From a virus, in IMG/VR virus record IMGVR_UViG_3300032342_000020, positions 1 to 41,062 of that record: a DNA stretch of 41,062 nucleotides; one strand, given 5' to 3'. Below are positions 128 through 19,026 of the stretch, piece by piece. Each line of letters starts with the position of its first letter. The first letter of the stretch is position 1. A model generated the notes under the pieces. That model worked only from the letters and a program-made list of their open reading frames with translations, had not been told where the DNA came from and did not search any database. The position numbers were made by a program, and so were the translations under genes.

Positions 128-1037
128 CGCGTTGTGGGCAGTGCGGCTGTACGAAGACCAGACGGTGATCAACTGGACCACGGCTGCGCCGGACCTGGTG
201 GATTTGCGCTTTGCCACGAACGCCGGAATGGCGGTGGCCGAAGAAGACGGCGATCCGAGCGGGCATTTCAAGATCATCAAATTCCCCAACGGCTCGTTGA
301 CCGATAACGCCGACGGCACGGTCAGCGTCGATTTGAGCGCCGCGGCCGGCGATTCGACTTTCACCGGCCTGACCGCCGATCTGCCGGCGCCATCGCAAGC
401 CGGCGACCAATATTTTCCGAGTGACGGTTTTGTGCATTACAGAGACACCGGAGCGGCCTGGGTTCCCTGGGGGCCGATCTTCCCGCTGACCGCGCCACCA
501 ACCAGCGGCTGGACCTGGGATAATCAGCAATCGGCGACGGTTGTCACGGCAAATGGCGGGATAATCTTGAAATCTCCAGCCTATAGTGCAACTGGAATCA
601 TCGCCTATTATCGGACTGCTCCAACTCCACCATACACGATAGCTGCATTTATTATTCCTCTTCTGTTGAGAGCGAACTCGGCTGGTTTTGGGATATTTTT
701 TAGAGAAAGTTCTACAGGAAAAATATGTACGTTGCGGTTCGCTCACAGTACCAACTTCGGTTTCTATAGCGATAAATGGACAAATTCAACTACTTACTCA
801 GCGGCTTATATTTCAGGTTTCAATGCTGGGACAGAGGCTAGACTGGTATTTATGCGAATTCAGGATGATAATTCGAATCGTATTTGTTCCTTCTCGCCAG
901 ACGGGATCAACTTCTACGCGTTCCATACGGTTGGGCGCACTGATTTCTTGACTGCAGACCAGGTTGGAATATTCGTCTCGCCGATCAATGCCAGTTATGG
1001 GGTCACTTTAAATCTCCTATCCTGGAAAGAATCATAA
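1..1037 (+). CDS. Tail fibre / receptor-binding protein, C-terminal part (gene starts at 40455)
   Basis: This is the 3' part of a 505-residue protein that starts at ATG 40455 and crosses the circular join in frame; 42 is only an internal methionine-possible codon (GTG/CTG region), not the real start. It is the last gene of the tail module, where phages put receptor-binding fibres. The N-terminal half (in the other part) should attach to the tail tip. The last ~160 residues (from about 510) start with a W-T-W-D segment and look like a concanavalin/DUF1349-type beta-sandwich, a fold often used for carbohydrate binding; this fold call is from pattern only. Base composition drops from GC-rich to clearly AT-richer at about 545-1030, as in exchanged receptor-binding tips. 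The stop overlaps the convergent integrase by 6 bp. Confidence 0.8.
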   Translation, partial: GALYALIRAGEDGVLDVQDGTPVDEFVDLVKTDIPAVAAGYAALWAVRLYEDQTVINWTTAAPDLVDLRFATNAGMAVAEEDGDPSGHFKIIKFPNGSLTDNADGTVSVDLSAAAGDSTFTGLTADLPAPSQAGDQYFPSDGFVHYRDTGAAWVPWGPIFPLTAPPTSGWTWDNQQSATVVTANGGIILKSPAYSATGIIAYYRTAPTPPYTIAAFIIPLLLRANSAGFGIFFRESSTGKICTLRFAHSTNFGFYSDKWTNSTTYSAAYISGFNAGTEARLVFMRIQDDNSNRICSFSPDGINFYAFHTVGRTDFLTADQVGIFVSPINASYGVTLNLLSWKES

Positions 1038-1952
1038 CCGCATATTCGCTACCGGCGAGGCCAGGCGGTGCACCGATTGGATATCCGCCTGGGCAATGTT
1101 GAGATAGGTCTTCACCATCTCCATAGTCGAATGCCCGAGAATAATCTGCAACGTGTAAGCGTTGCCCCCATTTCTTAGAAAATTGATCGCAAAAGTGTGC
1201 CGAAAGCGGTGCGGGTGGACGTTTTTGACACCGGCGCGGCGGCCAATGGCGCCCAACTGCTTCAGCAGGCGGTGCCGGTCCAGCGGCGTCTGGTTGGTGG
1301 TGACGAACAGCGGCTCACCGGGTAGCACGCTGCCACGTGATGAAACGTATTTCCAGAGCGCCTGGGCGACGCGCGGGCAGATCGGCAGGATGCGCTCCTT
1401 CGAGCCTTTGCCAAAGACTTTGATGTACAGGTTGCGAGTGTCCAGGTCGGCGATGCGCGCCTGGCACAGCTCATCGGCGCGCAGGCCGGTATCCAGCAGC
1501 AAGAGGATAATGGCGCGGTTGCGCTCCTGGTTGGGCAGCTCGTTGCTGGCAAAAGTGCCGTGGTTGCGGTAGGTTTTGCCATTTGCCAGGGCGCTGAGCA
1601 TGGCGCGCAGGTCTTCATCGCTGAAGGGTTCGATGGCGCGCTTCTCGGGGCGCGGGCGCTCGATCTGGCGCAGCAGGTTGGCGTGCGCCAGGCTTTCGTC
1701 ATAAGCGAAGGTCCACAGGGCGGACAGGCCGGTGTGGTAGTTCAGGACGGTTTTTTTGCTGACAGTCTGGGCGGCCAAGAACTGTTCGAGCTGTTGTTTG
1801 CTGATTTGCAGGAAGGGCGGATCCGCCTCGAGGAAGACGGCGAACTTGCGAAAGGTGACGTTGTAATCGTTGATCGTATGCGGGCTGAGGCGGCGAGCCT
1901 GGGCGGCCAGGTTGTAGCCGTCGACGACTTGGGAAAAGGTGAGTGGTAACAT
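1032..1952 (-). CDS. int: Tyrosine recombinase / phage integrase
   Basis: Site-specific DNA recombinase expected to integrate and excise the phage genome. 306 aa from ATG 1952, which has GGAGG ten bases upstream; an upstream extension to 2159 would run into the tRNA-like sequence and is rejected. A SAM-like core-binding N-terminus (about 1-100) is followed by the catalytic domain with all active-site residues: R158 in GLRADEL, K182 in the GKGSKER hairpin, H248/R251 in HRFR, H274 in LGHS and Y283 as nucleophile. It lacks the long arm-binding N-terminus of lambda integrase and looks XerC/D-sized. It is transcribed on the minus strand like the repressor, convergent with the tail fibre gene. Adjacent att-like sequence (2151-2224) supports the role. 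A second complete recombinase is at 5249. Confidence 0.93.
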   Translation of the reverse strand: MLPLTFSQVVDGYNLAAQARRLSPHTINDYNVTFRKFAVFLEADPPFLQISKQQLEQFLAAQTVSKKTVLNYHTGLSALWTFAYDESLAHANLLRQIERPRPEKRAIEPFSDEDLRAMLSALANGKTYRNHGTFASNELPNQERNRAIILLLLDTGLRADELCQARIADLDTRNLYIKVFGKGSKERILPICPRVAQALWKYVSSRGSVLPGEPLFVTTNQTPLDRHRLLKQLGAIGRRAGVKNVHPHRFRHTFAINFLRNGGNAYTLQIILGHSTMEMVKTYLNIAQADIQSVHRLASPVANMRL

Positions 1953-1984
1953 ATCCGTGGGTCCTCCGGGTGGTAGATGTTTTG

Positions 1985-2016
1985 TCGCATAATGCGGATA
2001 TCCGCGCATTATGCGA
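1985..2016. promoter_or_regulatory. Perfect 12-bp inverted repeat upstream of integrase
   Basis: Arms TCGCATAATGCG (1985-1996) and CGCATTATGCGA (2005-2016) flank an 8-base spacer; the centre GCGGATATCCGC is itself a palindrome. It lies 33 bases upstream of the integrase start, where a promoter or operator would be, and could bind a regulator or the recombinase. The 13-mer CGCATTATGCGAC, matching one arm, recurs at 9738-9750 upstream of the primase gene. Confidence 0.6.
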
Positions 2017-2092
2017 ATGAAAATGGACTTTTTTTTATAACCCGGAAGGGAGCCGTGAGGCGTGCGGGAGGTGAGGTGTGGCTGGTTTGTGT

Positions 2093-2142
2093 CCCTCACG
2101 CCGCACGGATGGGTGGATTGGGTATTCCGTGCGGCGTGAGGG
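2093..2142. other. 17-bp perfect inverted repeat next to tRNA-like/att region
   Basis: CCCTCACGCCGCACGGA (2093-2109) and its exact complement (2126-2142) enclose a 16-base loop. No T-run follows on either strand, so it is not a plain intrinsic terminator. It sits between the tRNA-like sequence and the integrase gene and may be a recombination arm structure or a strong hairpin in the leader of integrase transcripts. Confidence 0.6.
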
Positions 2143-2150
2143 CGGGTGTG

Positions 2151-2224
2151 TGGGCGCAAGAGGGCTCGAACCTCCGAACCTCACGGATGTGAACCGTTAA
2201 GTCGATTCCGCCGCCCGCACGCCC
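2151..2224 (-). tRNA. tRNA-Val(CAC)-like sequence, probable attP core
   Basis: On the minus strand 74 bases fit tRNA spacing. The acceptor strands GGGCGTG and TGCGCCC pair over 7 bp with two wobbles, the discriminator is A, and the T-arm is GGAGG-TTCGAGC-CCTCT. The anticodon arm has a 4-bp core and loop TTCACAT, which gives anticodon CAC (Val) with U33 and A37. The D-arm is poor: no clear stem and no GGTA motif. No CCA is encoded. A good 3' half with a degraded 5' half beside an integrase is what an attP carrying the 3' end of a host tRNA gene looks like, so it may not be a functional tRNA. Confidence 0.5.
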
Positions 2225-3167: not shown

Positions 3168-3368
3168 ATGAATATTTCGGGGATCATGTTCCTAATATTG
3201 AATGGACTGGCAAAACCAGGACAGGTATTTGAGACTCCTGAGTTATTAAAAATTGAAATCTTGGAAAATAATCGTTTATGTTTATCAATTCCTGGAGGAA
3301 CAAAACATACTTGGTGTATTAATCTTCGCGCCTCGCACCAATCTGTTGAAGCCATTTTTCGACAATAA
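3168..3368 (+). CDS. Small hypothetical protein antisense to repressor 3' end
   Basis: 66 aa, not recognised. The start is supported by a near-consensus promoter whose predicted start site falls on the ATG. The N-terminus is hydrophobic (MNISGIMFLILNG), followed by a beta-strand-rich stretch. Its last 50 bases overlap the 3' end of the minus-strand repressor gene, so the two transcripts converge and could interfere. An ORF of similar length exists on the opposite strand (3155-3355) without a promoter or ribosome-binding site and is less likely. A regulatory role in the lysogeny region is only inferred from place. Confidence 0.45.
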   Translation: MNISGIMFLILNGLAKPGQVFETPELLKIEILENNRLCLSIPGGTKHTWCINLRASHQSVEAIFRQ

Positions 3369-3660
3369 CAACTAGCTCTCCTAGTTGATCTTTGGGGGTC
3401 ATATCATAAAGATGTTGCAGTTTCTTGTAATCTGGATCTGGTCTTGCTATCTGAAGAATATCGTAAATTCTGTCACCCAATCTATCAGCCAACTTGTCGG
3501 CATATCTTCTCGACGGATTTCTAATTCCGTTCATCCAATGCCCTAAAGAGCCTTCAGGTACATCCAGATGTTCGGCAAAATCTCCAATAGACTTCTTAGT
3601 CCCCTCGTTAGCTTGCCATTTCAAATAATAGTGGTTTAAGTATTCCGCTAATTCTTTCAT
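3319..3660 (-). CDS. HTH (Cro/CI-type) repressor, likely lysogeny repressor
   Basis: 113 aa from ATG 3660. The reading frame stays open to TTG 3696, and ATGs at 3678 and 3669 also exist, but the minus-strand promoter at 3696-3668 would start transcription at about 3661, one base before ATG 3660, as for the leaderless cI mRNA of lambda. Residues about 20-65 form a helix-turn-helix (SIGDFAEHLDVPEGSLGHWM then RNPSRRYADKLADRLG), the Xre/CI type. A helical C-terminus probably dimerises; there is no LexA/CI autocleavage domain, so induction would need another signal or an antirepressor. It is divergent from the RHH gene across a shared operator, and is best read as the prophage repressor. Confidence 0.8.
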   Translation of the reverse strand: MKELAEYLNHYYLKWQANEGTKKSIGDFAEHLDVPEGSLGHWMNGIRNPSRRYADKLADRLGDRIYDILQIARPDPDYKKLQHLYDMTPKDQLGELVVIVEKWLQQIGARRED

Positions 3661-3667
3661 TTGATTC

Positions 3668-3696
3668 ATATTATCCATTTGAGAGAACGCTGTCAA
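3668..3696 (-). promoter_or_regulatory. Repressor promoter (leaderless), minus strand
   Basis: Minus-strand TTGACA (3696-3691), spacer of 17, TAATAT (3673-3668), a near-perfect sigma70 promoter. The predicted start at 3661 precedes ATG 3660 by one base. Its -35 box is one arm of the 3691-3707 inverted repeat. Confidence 0.75.
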
Positions 3697-3707
3697 CTAT
3701 CTTGACA
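3691..3707. promoter_or_regulatory. Shared operator of the lysogeny switch
   Basis: TGTCAA-CTATC-TTGACA is a perfect 6-bp inverted repeat with a 5-base spacer. Each half is the -35 box of one of two divergent promoters, so a dimeric repressor bound here would cover both. The binding protein is probably the HTH repressor at 3319-3660. Confidence 0.65.
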
Positions 3708-3730
3708 ATTGTTACTAACTAGTGTATTAT
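3702..3730 (+). promoter_or_regulatory. Rightward early promoter
   Basis: Consensus TTGACA (3702-3707), spacer of 17, TATTAT (3725-3730). Predicted start near 3737, giving a 32-base leader with AGGAG before ATG 3769. It drives the RHH gene and, past the terminator at 3945, possibly the early region. Confidence 0.8.
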
Positions 3731-3731
3731 C

Positions 3732-3744
3732 CTACACGCTGTAG
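3732..3744. promoter_or_regulatory. Inverted repeat at rightward start site
   Basis: CTACA-CGC-TGTAG overlaps the predicted transcription start of the rightward promoter. Its position suits an operator, perhaps for the ribbon-helix-helix protein encoded just downstream. Confidence 0.45.
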
Positions 3745-3768
3745 TAAATACATACAAGGAGTAGGAAT

Positions 3769-3963
3769 ATGCTGGAATACCCAAACATTTCTGTTACCAA
3801 AACATATAGCTTAACTTACGAGCAGATCAATAAAGTTTCCAAAATGGCGCAGCGTAGCGGAAAGAGCCAGGGCGAAATCGTTCGAGATGCAATTGATTTG
3901 CTCTATTCGCAATTTGAGCAACCTGCGAACGATGATGGTGATAGCAGCGACTGCGCGGAGTAG
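3769..3963 (+). CDS. Ribbon-helix-helix (CopG/Arc-type) regulator, Cro-like position
   Basis: 64 aa. Residues about 7-45 match the RHH fold: a beta strand (KTYSLTYEQ), helix A (INKVSKMAQRSG), turn with the typical K-SQGEIVRDAIDLL helix B. RHH proteins bind DNA as dimers through the paired N-terminal strands. The acidic tail (DDGDSSD) is short. ATG 3769 has AGGAG seven bases upstream. It is the first gene after the rightward promoter and faces the repressor, the place of cro in lambda, so it probably represses the repressor promoter or its own. The stop codon lies inside the stem of a terminator. Confidence 0.8.
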   Translation: MLEYPNISVTKTYSLTYEQINKVSKMAQRSGKSQGEIVRDAIDLLYSQFEQPANDDGDSSDCAE

Positions 3964-3978
3964 TCGCTGTTTTTATTT
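3945..3978 (+). terminator. Intrinsic terminator after RHH gene
   Basis: CAGCGACT (3945-3952) pairs with AGTCGCTG (3962-3969), 9-base loop, followed by TTTTTATTT. The stop codon of the RHH gene is inside the hairpin. It would end the short cro-like transcript unless read through, and thus may gate the early operon. Confidence 0.85.
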
Positions 3979-5248: not shown

Positions 5249-6226
5249 ATGAAAACTCAAACGTTTTCGGGCAATTCGCCGAACGAATTGCTTATCGAAA
5301 TGTCGATTGTGACCGGCGATTGGTTGGCCGATTTCGTGGCCTTCGCCGAGAGCCAGGGCTGCAGCGGGTCGTCGATCAAAGCCTACCGGCAGGACCTGAA
5401 GCAGTTTGCGAGCTGGTTCGAGGGGGTGAACGGGCAGCCGTTCGAGCCGGGGCTGATCACGGGGGTGGATCTGCGCTTGTATCGCAGCCAGTGCCTGGAG
5501 ACGGGCATGGCGGCGAATACCTGGAACCGGAGGCGAGCGACTTTGCGGAAGCTGTGCGACTTTGCGATGCAGACCGGACAGGTGGCATACGATCCATTCC
5601 AGGGGGTGGAGCCGAAGCCGTTGAGCGAGCCGCCGCCCAGGTGGTTGACGGAGGCGGAGTATCACCGGCTGGCGCGGCAGATCGAGCAGTCTGTCAACAC
5701 GGCCACGACCGAGCACTGGCGCTGGCAGGCGGTGCGCGACCAGGCGATCGTGGCGCTGATGCTGTACGCCGGGCTGCGCGAAGCGGAGGTGTGCGATCTG
5801 AACGTGGGCGATGTGCAGGTCGGCGAGCGCAAGGGCAGGCTGGTGGTGCGGAATGGGAAGGGCGGGAAGGAGCGCCATTTGCCGCTGAATAACGAGGCGC
5901 GGCGGGCGGTGAAGCTGTGGCTGAACGTGAGCGGACGGACGGATGGGGCGCTGTTCGTGGGTAAGGGGGATGGCGCCACAGGAAGTGGCGTGCGGATCGG
6001 GGTGCGGCTGGTGCAGAAGCGGGTACAGGCGCTGCGGGAGGCGTGCAAGCTGGATGAAAAATGCACGCCACACGCATTGCGCCATACGTTCGCTCGAAGG
6101 CTATTAAATGGGGGTGTTCCATTGACCGTTGTGAGTAAATTGCTTGGCCATAGCCGCCTTGAAACTACAAAAAGATATGTCCAACCCGGTTGGGAGGATT
6201 TTGAGGCGGCGGTTGAAAAACTGTAA
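5249..6226 (+). CDS. Second tyrosine recombinase (XerC/D-like)
   Basis: 325 aa. N-terminal SAM-like core-binding domain (about 25-115) and catalytic domain (about 130-325) with a full active site: R177 in AGLREAE, K204 in GKGGKER, H275/R278 in HALR, H301 in LGHS and Y310. It is as intact as the integrase at 1032, on the opposite strand and only distantly similar. It starts seven bases after the lipoprotein stop, with GAGG before ATG 5249, so it sits inside the early transcription unit. It may act as a second integrase, a resolvase of genome multimers, or an integrase left by another element. No att-like site was found beside it. Confidence 0.92.
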   Translation: MKTQTFSGNSPNELLIEMSIVTGDWLADFVAFAESQGCSGSSIKAYRQDLKQFASWFEGVNGQPFEPGLITGVDLRLYRSQCLETGMAANTWNRRRATLRKLCDFAMQTGQVAYDPFQGVEPKPLSEPPPRWLTEAEYHRLARQIEQSVNTATTEHWRWQAVRDQAIVALMLYAGLREAEVCDLNVGDVQVGERKGRLVVRNGKGGKERHLPLNNEARRAVKLWLNVSGRTDGALFVGKGDGATGSGVRIGVRLVQKRVQALREACKLDEKCTPHALRHTFARRLLNGGVPLTVVSKLLGHSRLETTKRYVQPGWEDFEAAVEKL

Positions 6227-9951: not shown

Positions 9952-12900
9952 GTGGATGACATACTAAGCAAGATCAGGGAAGCAAACCGAATAGAGGACG
10001 TAATCAACGAGACGCACCCGCTGGAACATCGGCACGGGAAGTATGTCCGGGGGTTGGGGGAGAACCATGCGCTGGTGGTCAATGTCATTAGACAGCTTTA
10101 CACGTTCAATGGCAAGGGTGGAAATGAAGCGGGGGATGTTTATAACTGGGTGATGAACCGGCAGAAGATAGATTTCAAGGGGTCGGTGGAGTGGCTGGCC
10201 AGGCGGGCGCACCTGCCGGAGCCGAGATGGAGCCACGAAGATCAGGCCAAACGGGAGGTGACCAGGCTGCGGGAGACGGTGTTCGGGCTGGCGCAGGCGA
10301 AGATGCAACAGTGGCTGTGGGATGACCCAGAAGCGCTGGCGTATGTCCGGGGCAGGGGCTGGACAGATGAGACGATCCGGGAGGCGGGATTGGGATTTTC
10401 GGGGCGGAATACTGCTGCTGCTTTGGCGGATTTGAAAGGCGATTTCTCGCTGAACGGGATCGATGCGGAATGCCCGCACGCCGTGGCGATCCTGGGGTGG
10501 CGGGGGGATGTGAAAGCGTGGGCAACGAAGTGGGGGGTGGAGATTGAGGACCAGCCGAACTGGCGGGAATGGGGAATGGTGCCGGGATTGGTTGGAAAAA
10601 CGCGTCTTGTCTACGCGCATTATGTGAACGGCAGGGTGATCACCTTCAGCGGGCGGAATATCCTGGGGGCGGAGATCAATAAAGAGGGAAAGGAGATCAA
10701 GAGCTACAACTTACCGGTGGTGCTGAGCGGGGAGCGGCAGGTGTATTTCAACCAGGTGTATGGGACGCGGGCGGAGGAGTGCGTGATCGTGGAGGGTCCG
10801 GCGGATGCGATCACGCTGGGGCAGTGGGACGTGGCGGCGGCAGCGATGTGCGGGACGGCGTACCAGGACAAGGAGAAGGTGTTGGGGGAGCTGCGCAAGC
10901 GGCACGGGCGGCTGTACCTGGGGATGGATGCAGATGAGGCGGGGCTGCGGGCGCTGCGGGGGAAGAGCGATGATTGGCCGCTGGCGTTCATCTTGGGGCC
11001 GATGGCCAGGGTGGTGCGCTGGCCGGAGGGCAAAGATGCCAATGACTGGCTGAAGTCGATGGGAGAGGATGGGTTGTTGGATTACCGGGGGAGTATGCAG
11101 TCGACAGTCAACAGACGACAGGGAGATGATGAGGTATTAAGCTACGCCTTGGATTTCCTGAGCCAAGAGAATGTGATCAGTCTCTCGAAGCTTCAGAGGG
11201 ATTTGAAGATCGGGTATCCAAGGGCGGTGGGGGTGATGAAGGAACTTGAGGCGCGGGGATTGGTGGAAAGGACGGAGGGAGGGCAGTGGAAAGTATTAAG
11301 GAAAGCATTGGCTGATGCTTTAGATGCAATATCACAGGCGGAAAGCGAGGCTGCTGTTGAGGAAGAAGGGCGATCACCGATCGCCCCTACAACGGAGGCC
11401 GGCGAGGCTGCTGCTATAACAGAGGAGGGTGCGGGGGGAGGAGAGTCGGATGGTCAGAAGTCGGATGGTCTGATAGAAGACCCGGCCAGGCGGGAGGAGT
11501 ATATCAAGCGGCTGGTGGAGATGCAGGCGGAGCGGGCGCGGGAGGTATTGGGGCAGGCGCTGACGATGGCGGAGGAGTGCGCGGCGTGGGCCGGGCAGCT
11601 GAAGGGGGGCGAGCGAGACGAGGGGTTCAAGACGGCGTTCAAGCTGATCAGCCAGATGGACCGGGTGGAGCGGGCGTCGTACCGCAAGAGCCTGATCGAG
11701 CGGCTGCAGATCGGGATCCGGGAATTTGCGGACATCCTGAAGGGGGCGGTGAAGGAGAGCGAGGAGGAGCCGGTCACGTTTGTGGAGACGCTGGGGGGAT
11801 GGATTGGCGGGTGGCTGGTGGAGTATGTGTACGATCCGGGGGCGGATAAGGCGCGGCTGGCGTTCCGGGATCCGGATAAGAAGATCGGCGTGGCGGAGTT
11901 CCTGGATATCGACGGGAAGCGCTACGTGCCGAAGCCGGTGAACGGGTTCATCAAGAAGGGGGGCGTGCTGTTCCCGAGCGAGGTGGGGGCGCTGAAATCG
12001 ACCAAGGAGCTGGTGACGCTGGTGGAGATGTTTATCAACGCGCATTACCTGCTGGAGAACCGCTATCTGTCCAGGATCATCGCCTATTACGTGCTGATGA
12101 CCTGGTGCTACGATGCGTTCAACGCGCTGCCGTACTTGCGGGCGATGGGGGAGGCGGGGGCAGGCAAGTCTGAGTTGATGCGGCGGGTGGGGCACCTGTG
12201 CTACCGGCTGATGATGGCGAGCGGGGCGGGGACGGCGGCCAGCTTCTTCCGGGCGACGGAGATGTACCGGGGGACGGTGTTCATCGACGAGGCGGATCTG
12301 CACGATGGGGGGGATATGAGCAACGACCTGGTGAAGTTTTTGAACCTGGGGGCGATGGCGGGCAACCCGATCTGGCGGTTGGAGGAGGTGATGACCGAAT
12401 GCGGGAAGTCGTATGAGGTGATGACGTTCGAGACGTTCTGCCCGAAGCTGATCGCGATGCGGAAGGATTTCAAGGACGATGCGGTGGGATCCAGGTGTCT
12501 GACGATCAAGGTGCAGCCCAGGGAGCCGATGGAACTGAAGGCGAAGGGGATCAAATTAAATATAGATGACACGTTCCGGGAGAAGGCGCGGGCGATCCGC
12601 AACCTGCTGCTGCGGTGGCGGTTCCAGGTGTGGGAGCCGCAGATCGAGTGCGGGGAGGAGCTGATGGACCTGGAGGTGTCTTCACGGCTGAACCAGGTGA
12701 CGATGCCGCTGAAGGCGCTGGCGAAGGACGACCCGGAATTGCTGGCGGAGATCGAGACGTTTTTGCGGGCGTACCACCGGGAGATGACACTGACGAAGAG
12801 TATGACGATTGCAGCGCGGGTGGTGGAGGCGCTGTGGCGGATCTGGAATAATCCAAAGGAGCACGAGAAGTATGTGAAGAACGGGGGGGAGGCGTGCATC

Positions 12901-13233
12901 TTGATCGGGGATGTGGCGTTTGTGGCGAACACGATCATGGATGAGATGAACGCGCTGGAGGGGGACGAGGCGGAGGATGAGAGCACGAAGAAGAAGCGCA
13001 AGAAGGACAGCCTGACGGCGCGCGGGGTGGGGAGCCTGGTGCGGAACGAGCTGCAATTGCAGGTGGGGGAGCGGCGGGGGAAGGGCTTCCCGGTGTATTG
13101 GGACGAGCTGCGGATGCGGGCGCTGGCGAAGAGGTATGGGGTGGACCCGGAACAGAAGTATGAGACGGTGGAGCTGAATGTTGAGAAGAGTGAACAGGTG
13201 ACGAGTGCGAAGCAAGAGGAGATACCGTTTTGA
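9952..13233 (+). CDS. Replication protein: TOPRIM primase fused to AAA+ ATPase/helicase
   Basis: 1093 aa from GTG 9952 with GGAG upstream. Residues about 15-85 resemble the DnaG CHC2 zinc domain (YTFNGKGGNEAGDVYNWVM...SVEWLA) but all zinc cysteines are absent. A TOPRIM domain follows: VEGPADAI near 278 and the MDADEAG motif near 324. Residues about 390-450 form a winged helix like the FtsK gamma domain. A low-complexity linker (about 455-510) carries repeat-derived sequence. The C-terminal ATPase has Walker A EAGAGKSE near 735 and Walker B TVFIDEADL near 777, arranged as in phage and plasmid helicases. It should synthesise primers and unwind DNA at the phage fork. Its stop overlaps the methyltransferase start. 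G-rich codon use (GGG, CGG) is strong. Confidence 0.85.
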   Translation: MDDILSKIREANRIEDVINETHPLEHRHGKYVRGLGENHALVVNVIRQLYTFNGKGGNEAGDVYNWVMNRQKIDFKGSVEWLARRAHLPEPRWSHEDQAKREVTRLRETVFGLAQAKMQQWLWDDPEALAYVRGRGWTDETIREAGLGFSGRNTAAALADLKGDFSLNGIDAECPHAVAILGWRGDVKAWATKWGVEIEDQPNWREWGMVPGLVGKTRLVYAHYVNGRVITFSGRNILGAEINKEGKEIKSYNLPVVLSGERQVYFNQVYGTRAEECVIVEGPADAITLGQWDVAAAAMCGTAYQDKEKVLGELRKRHGRLYLGMDADEAGLRALRGKSDDWPLAFILGPMARVVRWPEGKDANDWLKSMGEDGLLDYRGSMQSTVNRRQGDDEVLSYALDFLSQENVISLSKLQRDLKIGYPRAVGVMKELEARGLVERTEGGQWKVLRKALADALDAISQAESEAAVEEEGRSPIAPTTEAGEAAAITEEGAGGGESDGQKSDGLIEDPARREEYIKRLVEMQAERAREVLGQALTMAEECAAWAGQLKGGERDEGFKTAFKLISQMDRVERASYRKSLIERLQIGIREFADILKGAVKESEEEPVTFVETLGGWIGGWLVEYVYDPGADKARLAFRDPDKKIGVAEFLDIDGKRYVPKPVNGFIKKGGVLFPSEVGALKSTKELVTLVEMFINAHYLLENRYLSRIIAYYVLMTWCYDAFNALPYLRAMGEAGAGKSELMRRVGHLCYRLMMASGAGTAASFFRATEMYRGTVFIDEADLHDGGDMSNDLVKFLNLGAMAGNPIWRLEEVMTECGKSYEVMTFETFCPKLIAMRKDFKDDAVGSRCLTIKVQPREPMELKAKGIKLNIDDTFREKARAIRNLLLRWRFQVWEPQIECGEELMDLEVSSRLNQVTMPLKALAKDDPELLAEIETFLRAYHREMTLTKSMTIAARVVEALWRIWNNPKEHEKYVKNGGEACILIGDVAFVANTIMDEMNALEGDEAEDESTKKKRKKDSLTARGVGSLVRNELQLQVGERRGKGFPVYWDELRMRALAKRYGVDPEQKYETVELNVEKSEQVTSAKQEEIPF
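11368..11386. repeat. Interspersed hairpin inside primase gene
   Basis: GGGCGATC-ACC-GATCGCCC followed by CTAC, within the linker of the primase. The same design with the CTAC end occurs between genes at 14908 and 27249. It is translated in frame as GRSPIAPT. Confidence 0.6.
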
Positions 13234-18997: not shown

Positions 18998-19026
18998 TTG
19001 ACATTTGAGGAGAAGTGTTTTAAAAT
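18998..19026 (+). promoter_or_regulatory. Strong sigma70-type late promoter
   Basis: TTGACA (18998-19003), spacer of 17, TAAAAT (19021-19026), start expected near 19033. It precedes the lysis cassette and, beyond it, all virion genes on the same strand, so it is the probable late promoter. No repressor operator is evident. Confidence 0.8.

Follow-up and report, generated by a model that had tools for sequence, protein, structure and literature searches.

The locus at 3319-3963 of the window, which is here the whole 41,062-base virus record under analysis, raises the question of how a phage may choose between lysis and lysogeny when its two regulators are built on different folds. A helix-turn-helix repressor gene of type HTH_3, read leftward, and a ribbon-helix-helix (RHH) gene of type RHH_1, read rightward, diverge there across 108 bp. 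This arrangement quite probably serves a temperate tailed phage as its immunity switch between lysis and lysogeny, combining an HTH repressor whose mRNA leader would be ultra-short with an RHH early regulator.

Genome context and divergent promoters

Both ends of the window carried an exact repeat of 127 bp, which fits a complete circular genome. Terminase, portal and tape-measure genes were found together with two different tyrosine recombinases (Pfam, PHROG), and the joint presence of integrase and structural genes within one genome is that of a temperate phage. Known phages displayed zero nucleotide similarity to the window; an Rfam search of it gave no match, and distant integrases were the sole matches in a search of genome contigs. 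A tRNA-Val (CAC) gene (2150-2224), on the strand that also carries the leftward integrase, lay directly 5' of that gene and is a possible attachment site. A similar order was observed in virus Rctr41k, where tRNA-Thr precedes the terminal integrase. Elsewhere in the window, positions 9952-13233 encoded a 1093-aa protein joining a DnaG-type zinc ribbon, a Toprim domain and an FtsK gamma DNA-binding domain (Pfam), an unusual fusion.

Promoters, gene types, the terminator, the presence or absence of Shine-Dalgarno motifs and their recurrence in relatives were read directly from sequence. The features of the locus and its flanks were as follows:

1032-2159, minus strand: second tyrosine recombinase, 3' of the repressor gene and adjoining tRNA-Val (Pfam Phage_integrase, 5.4e-32)
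3319-3660, minus strand: HTH_3 repressor gene (Pfam, 25.9 bits for a cut-off of 23; PHROG transcriptional regulators)
3668-3696, minus strand: leftward PRM-like promoter, TTGACA-N17-TAATAT (10/12; predicted start 3660-3665)
3691-3707, no strand: inverted repeat TGTCAA-N5-TTGACA, formed by the two -35 hexamers (sequence reading)
3702-3730, plus strand: rightward PR-like promoter, TTGACA-N17-TATTAT (11/12; predicted start around 3737)
3712-3747, no strand: candidate operator over the rightward -10, TTACTA-N4-GTGTA-N6-TACAC-N4-TAGTAA (suggestive; non-significant in shuffles)
3756-3761, plus strand: Shine-Dalgarno motif AAGGAG of the RHH gene (-6.6 kcal/mol)
3769-3963, plus strand: RHH_1 (CopG/Arc-type) protein of 64 aa in the Cro position (Pfam, 23.5 bits for a cut-off of 20.5; phrog_3887 transcriptional regulator)
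3943-3976, plus strand: intrinsic terminator overlapping the RHH stop codon (-19.9 kcal/mol, z -4.6)
5249-6226, plus strand: tyrosine recombinase, 3' of the RHH gene (Pfam Phage_integrase, 1.1e-35)

The original prediction had placed two near-consensus sigma70 promoters back to back in this region, and both were recovered. The rightward promoter was composed of a -35 TTGACA (3702-3707), a 17 bp spacer and a -10 TATTAT (3725-3730); the leftward promoter displayed TTGACA (3696-3691), again 17 bp of spacer, and TAATAT (3673-3668). The latter -10 was weak (4/6 relative to consensus at this spacing) and overlapped an alternative, GATAAT (3675-3670), which matched at 5/6 with a 15 bp spacer. On both strands of the 41-kb window, four sites scored at least 10/12, two of which were the switch promoters, and when the local sequence (1661 bp) was resampled 400 times under a Markov model, no resampling contained a divergent pair equally close. 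Such scores express the match to the sigma70 consensus, from which the sigma factor of the host may differ. With an HTH repressor gene and an early regulator gene served by back-to-back promoters, the locus has the layout of a lambda-type switch. The sole other rightward promoter of 11/12 in the genome, TTGACA-N17-TAAAAT at 18998-19026, was located 5' of packaging genes and is a candidate late or second control point.

The rightward unit, expected to run from promoter through RHH gene to terminator, was likewise confirmed. Its product exceeded the curated Pfam cut-off for RHH_1, so that the early regulator of the window belongs to this family and not to the Cro-type HTH proteins, and the terminator combined a hairpin (3943-3971) with a T-rich tail behind it.

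The near-consensus PR-like promoter would yield an ordinary leadered mRNA for the RHH early regulator, while the terminator just 3' of the gene would lessen read-through into the early operon. The PRM-like promoter would yield a repressor mRNA with a leader of 0-5 nt, translated free of any Shine-Dalgarno motif. The rightward promoter is most likely shut down by the HTH repressor during lysogeny, and the most likely role of the RHH protein is that of a Cro-like opponent, which would act on the leftward promoter, autoregulate, or both. We infer here the transcription starts, the lysogenic function and which protein binds where.

Relatives and the RHH partner

Direct searches of viral contigs and phage records with the repressor or the RHH protein gave a single partial match (37.5 %). 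Diverged relatives were reached instead through the two integrases and the terminase of the window:

L002: terminase 48 %, integrase 48 % identical
L046: terminase 39 % identical
L050 and L051: integrase 54-55 % identical
L075 (same record as L053): integrase 34 % identical

In all five, the HTH repressor gene and a small early gene were divergently oriented. The early promoter carried TTGACA, with a -10 of TAAAAT in L002, TACAAT in L046 and TATAAT in both L050 and L051, and read TTGACA-N17-AATAAT in L075. The HTH/RHH pairing, which had been singled out as uncommon, recurred among these phages, with weaker RHH evidence there than in the window. Confident RHH assignments were restricted to the window and L075 (RHH_1, 25.6 bits, third early gene). 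Partners of L051 and L050 gave sub-threshold RHH_4 and RHH_5 matches (Pfam), and those of L046 and L002 gave no RHH match in Pfam. By eye, the sequence pattern of the L046 partner was RHH-like. The L002 partner was also tried as an RHH protein by AlphaFold and set aside, the model (pLDDT 57) being uninformative. The RHH gene of L050 was tandemly duplicated in the early operon (3435-3844), copy one being apparently truncated and running into copy two.

Two more distant integrase-bearing genomes, G029 and G034, carried divergent HTH/HTH pairs, which means that both designs exist. L054, also more distant, was rejected as an HTH/RHH switch: an HTH repressor stood beside its integrase, but no RHH partner was recognised. 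A separate observation concerned the repressors of L050 (3966-4370) and L051 (3922-4314), which were identical at 42 of 55 C-terminal positions and at 25 of 70 in the DNA-binding part. Integrases of these two phages were 93 % identical and their intergenic DNA had diverged; judged from these alignments, the repressor difference looks like an immunity-specificity swap.

Whether the RHH protein acts at the switch at all deserves consideration. It may instead be an early regulator or an antitoxin-like protein acting elsewhere, on phage or host promoters, with the HTH repressor alone running the switch. RHH proteins have many roles, the L075 gene is only third in its early operon and encodes a protein weakly similar to RelB antitoxins, and the tandem duplication in L050 also fits such a function; however, the RHH gene is the first early gene under the rightward promoter in the window, L050 and L051, and this alternative is considered possible but doubtful. 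The Cro-like opponent remains the preferred role. Its extension to an uncultured temperate phage lineage that systematically uses RHH in place of HTH Cro, against a leaderless or ultra-short-leader HTH repressor and over shared DNA, is a tentative proposal with the odds against it.

Translation of the repressor

The repressor was modelled by AlphaFold with a mean pLDDT of 85.6, and its best Foldseek matches in the PDB, none of which reached E <= 0.001, were for the most part HTH regulators, SinR and lambda repressor among them. Three in-frame ATGs (3678, 3669 and 3660) were available in its reading frame, none of them with a Shine-Dalgarno motif, and the start is most likely ATG 3660. Since either -10 puts the predicted transcription start at 3660-3665, the leader to this ATG would measure 0-5 nt.

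Duplexes with the anti-Shine-Dalgarno sequence ranged from +0.7 to -3.6 kcal/mol over all candidate repressor starts of the six phages (window and relatives), against -4.5 to -7.1 kcal/mol for their partner genes. Among the other genes of the window, 28 out of 33 reached -4 kcal/mol or better. Repressors were Shine-Dalgarno-free in all six phages, and the contrast between repressors (0/6) and partners (6/6) gave a Fisher p of 0.002, to be read with the relatedness of the phages, which are not fully independent, and with a -4 threshold picked after the values were known. Drawn from sequence comparison, this contrast supports translation of the repressor from an mRNA with no leader or a very short one.

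By inspection, the predicted repressor leader was about 6 nt in L050 and about 3 nt in L075. No strong repressor promoter was visible in L050, L046 and L051, and exact leaderlessness is therefore not uniform. The leaderless mRNA initially proposed was supported as the prediction of a near-zero leader and by the missing Shine-Dalgarno motif.

A leadered mRNA, issued from an unseen upstream promoter and translated from ATG 3678 or 3669, is quite improbable. Three in-frame ATGs do exist and the helix in the AlphaFold model starts close to residue 3, counted on the 3678 form, but the intergenic region contained no further leftward sigma70-like site of at least 9/12, each ATG lacked a Shine-Dalgarno motif, and homologues displayed comparably short N-termini. 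The near-leaderless reading is accordingly retained, and the Shine-Dalgarno contrast over six diverged phages suggests that this mode of repressor translation is selected in such switches and is no oddity of lambda.

Candidate operators and comparison with known systems

The two -35 boxes had been proposed to form a shared operator. The repeat TGTCAA-N5-TTGACA was indeed perfect, but its arms ended exactly at the -35 hexamers, with non-complementary inner and flanking bases. Two consensus -35 boxes pointing apart create such a repeat automatically; being implied by the promoters, it is no evidence of an operator. Comparison with related phages, along the lines suggested as a check, did not recover the window arrangement: 21 bp separated the two -35 boxes in L002, and L046, L050 and L051 displayed no symmetric leftward -35 comparable to that of the window.

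In shuffles of the window switch region, neither the best palindrome (p = 0.12) nor repeated words were significant, and TGACA was slightly over-represented (two copies, p = 0.044). L002 contained four copies of TGACA, a number reached in none of 500 shuffles, and a significant palindrome over its early promoter (p = 0.015). L075 displayed four near-identical 17-bp sites across the region (TTCCTTATGGGAAATAA, TTCCTTATTGACAATAA, TTCCCTATAAGCAATAA and TACCTTATAAGCAATAA), one of which contains the early -35 TTGACA, and its 12-mer repeats were significant (0/60 shuffles). Where relatives showed operator-like repeats (L002, L075 and marginally L051), these covered the early promoter or were arranged in tandem. 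The L075 sites and the L002 palindrome indicate from sequence that this phage group probably has shared operators, arranged otherwise than first proposed.

That one dimer of either protein closes both promoters together by binding TGTCAA-N5-TTGACA is very improbable: the perfect repeat, the enrichment of TGACA (mild in the window, stronger in L002) and the L075 site including the early -35 are in its favour, whereas the arms coincide with consensus -35 boxes and lack extension, the geometry is lost in relatives, and such closure would also stop the repressor required for maintaining lysogeny.

At lambda OR, cI and cro diverge from PRM and PR, the HTH repressor mRNA is leaderless, and the strong PR serves an early regulator with a Shine-Dalgarno motif. 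The window resembled this system in its divergent promoters, its HTH repressor (mRNA predicted near-leaderless) and its Shine-Dalgarno-led early gene. It differed by an RHH protein where lambda has HTH Cro, by the absence of a visible OR1-3 array and by a repressor of 113-119 aa, a length that leaves no room for the autocleavage domain of CI. Regulators of the RHH type take part in lysogeny control in P22 (Arc and Mnt). Another such regulator is F55 of SSV1 (PMC5569661). The fold and field of action are those of the window protein, whose role is predicted, but in P22 and SSV1 an RHH protein either acts as the repressor or belongs to a secondary immunity region, whereas in the window a single intergenic region separates its gene from that of an HTH repressor.

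The closest studied case was PaaR2/YdaS of CP-933P, with a divergent region of 97 bp, a leaderless repressor established by 5' RACE and N-terminal sequencing, and demonstrated binding and cross-regulation (PMC8630535, where leaderless lambda cI is also mentioned). It shares with the window the compact divergent region and an early regulator that opposes the repressor, as predicted for the RHH protein; YdaS is an HTH_XRE protein while the window partner is RHH, and binding and cross-regulation are predictions in the window. A limited literature search gave no direct precedent for an HTH/RHH phage switch. If the RHH protein truly opposes the HTH repressor, proteins of two unrelated DNA-binding folds can together make up a lysis-lysogeny decision, and the logic of the lambda switch is separable from its protein family. 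Lambda cI and CP-933P PaaR2 are known precedents for leaderless repressors in switches of this compact divergent kind, and the pairing of HTH with RHH varies the lambda-type switch only modestly.
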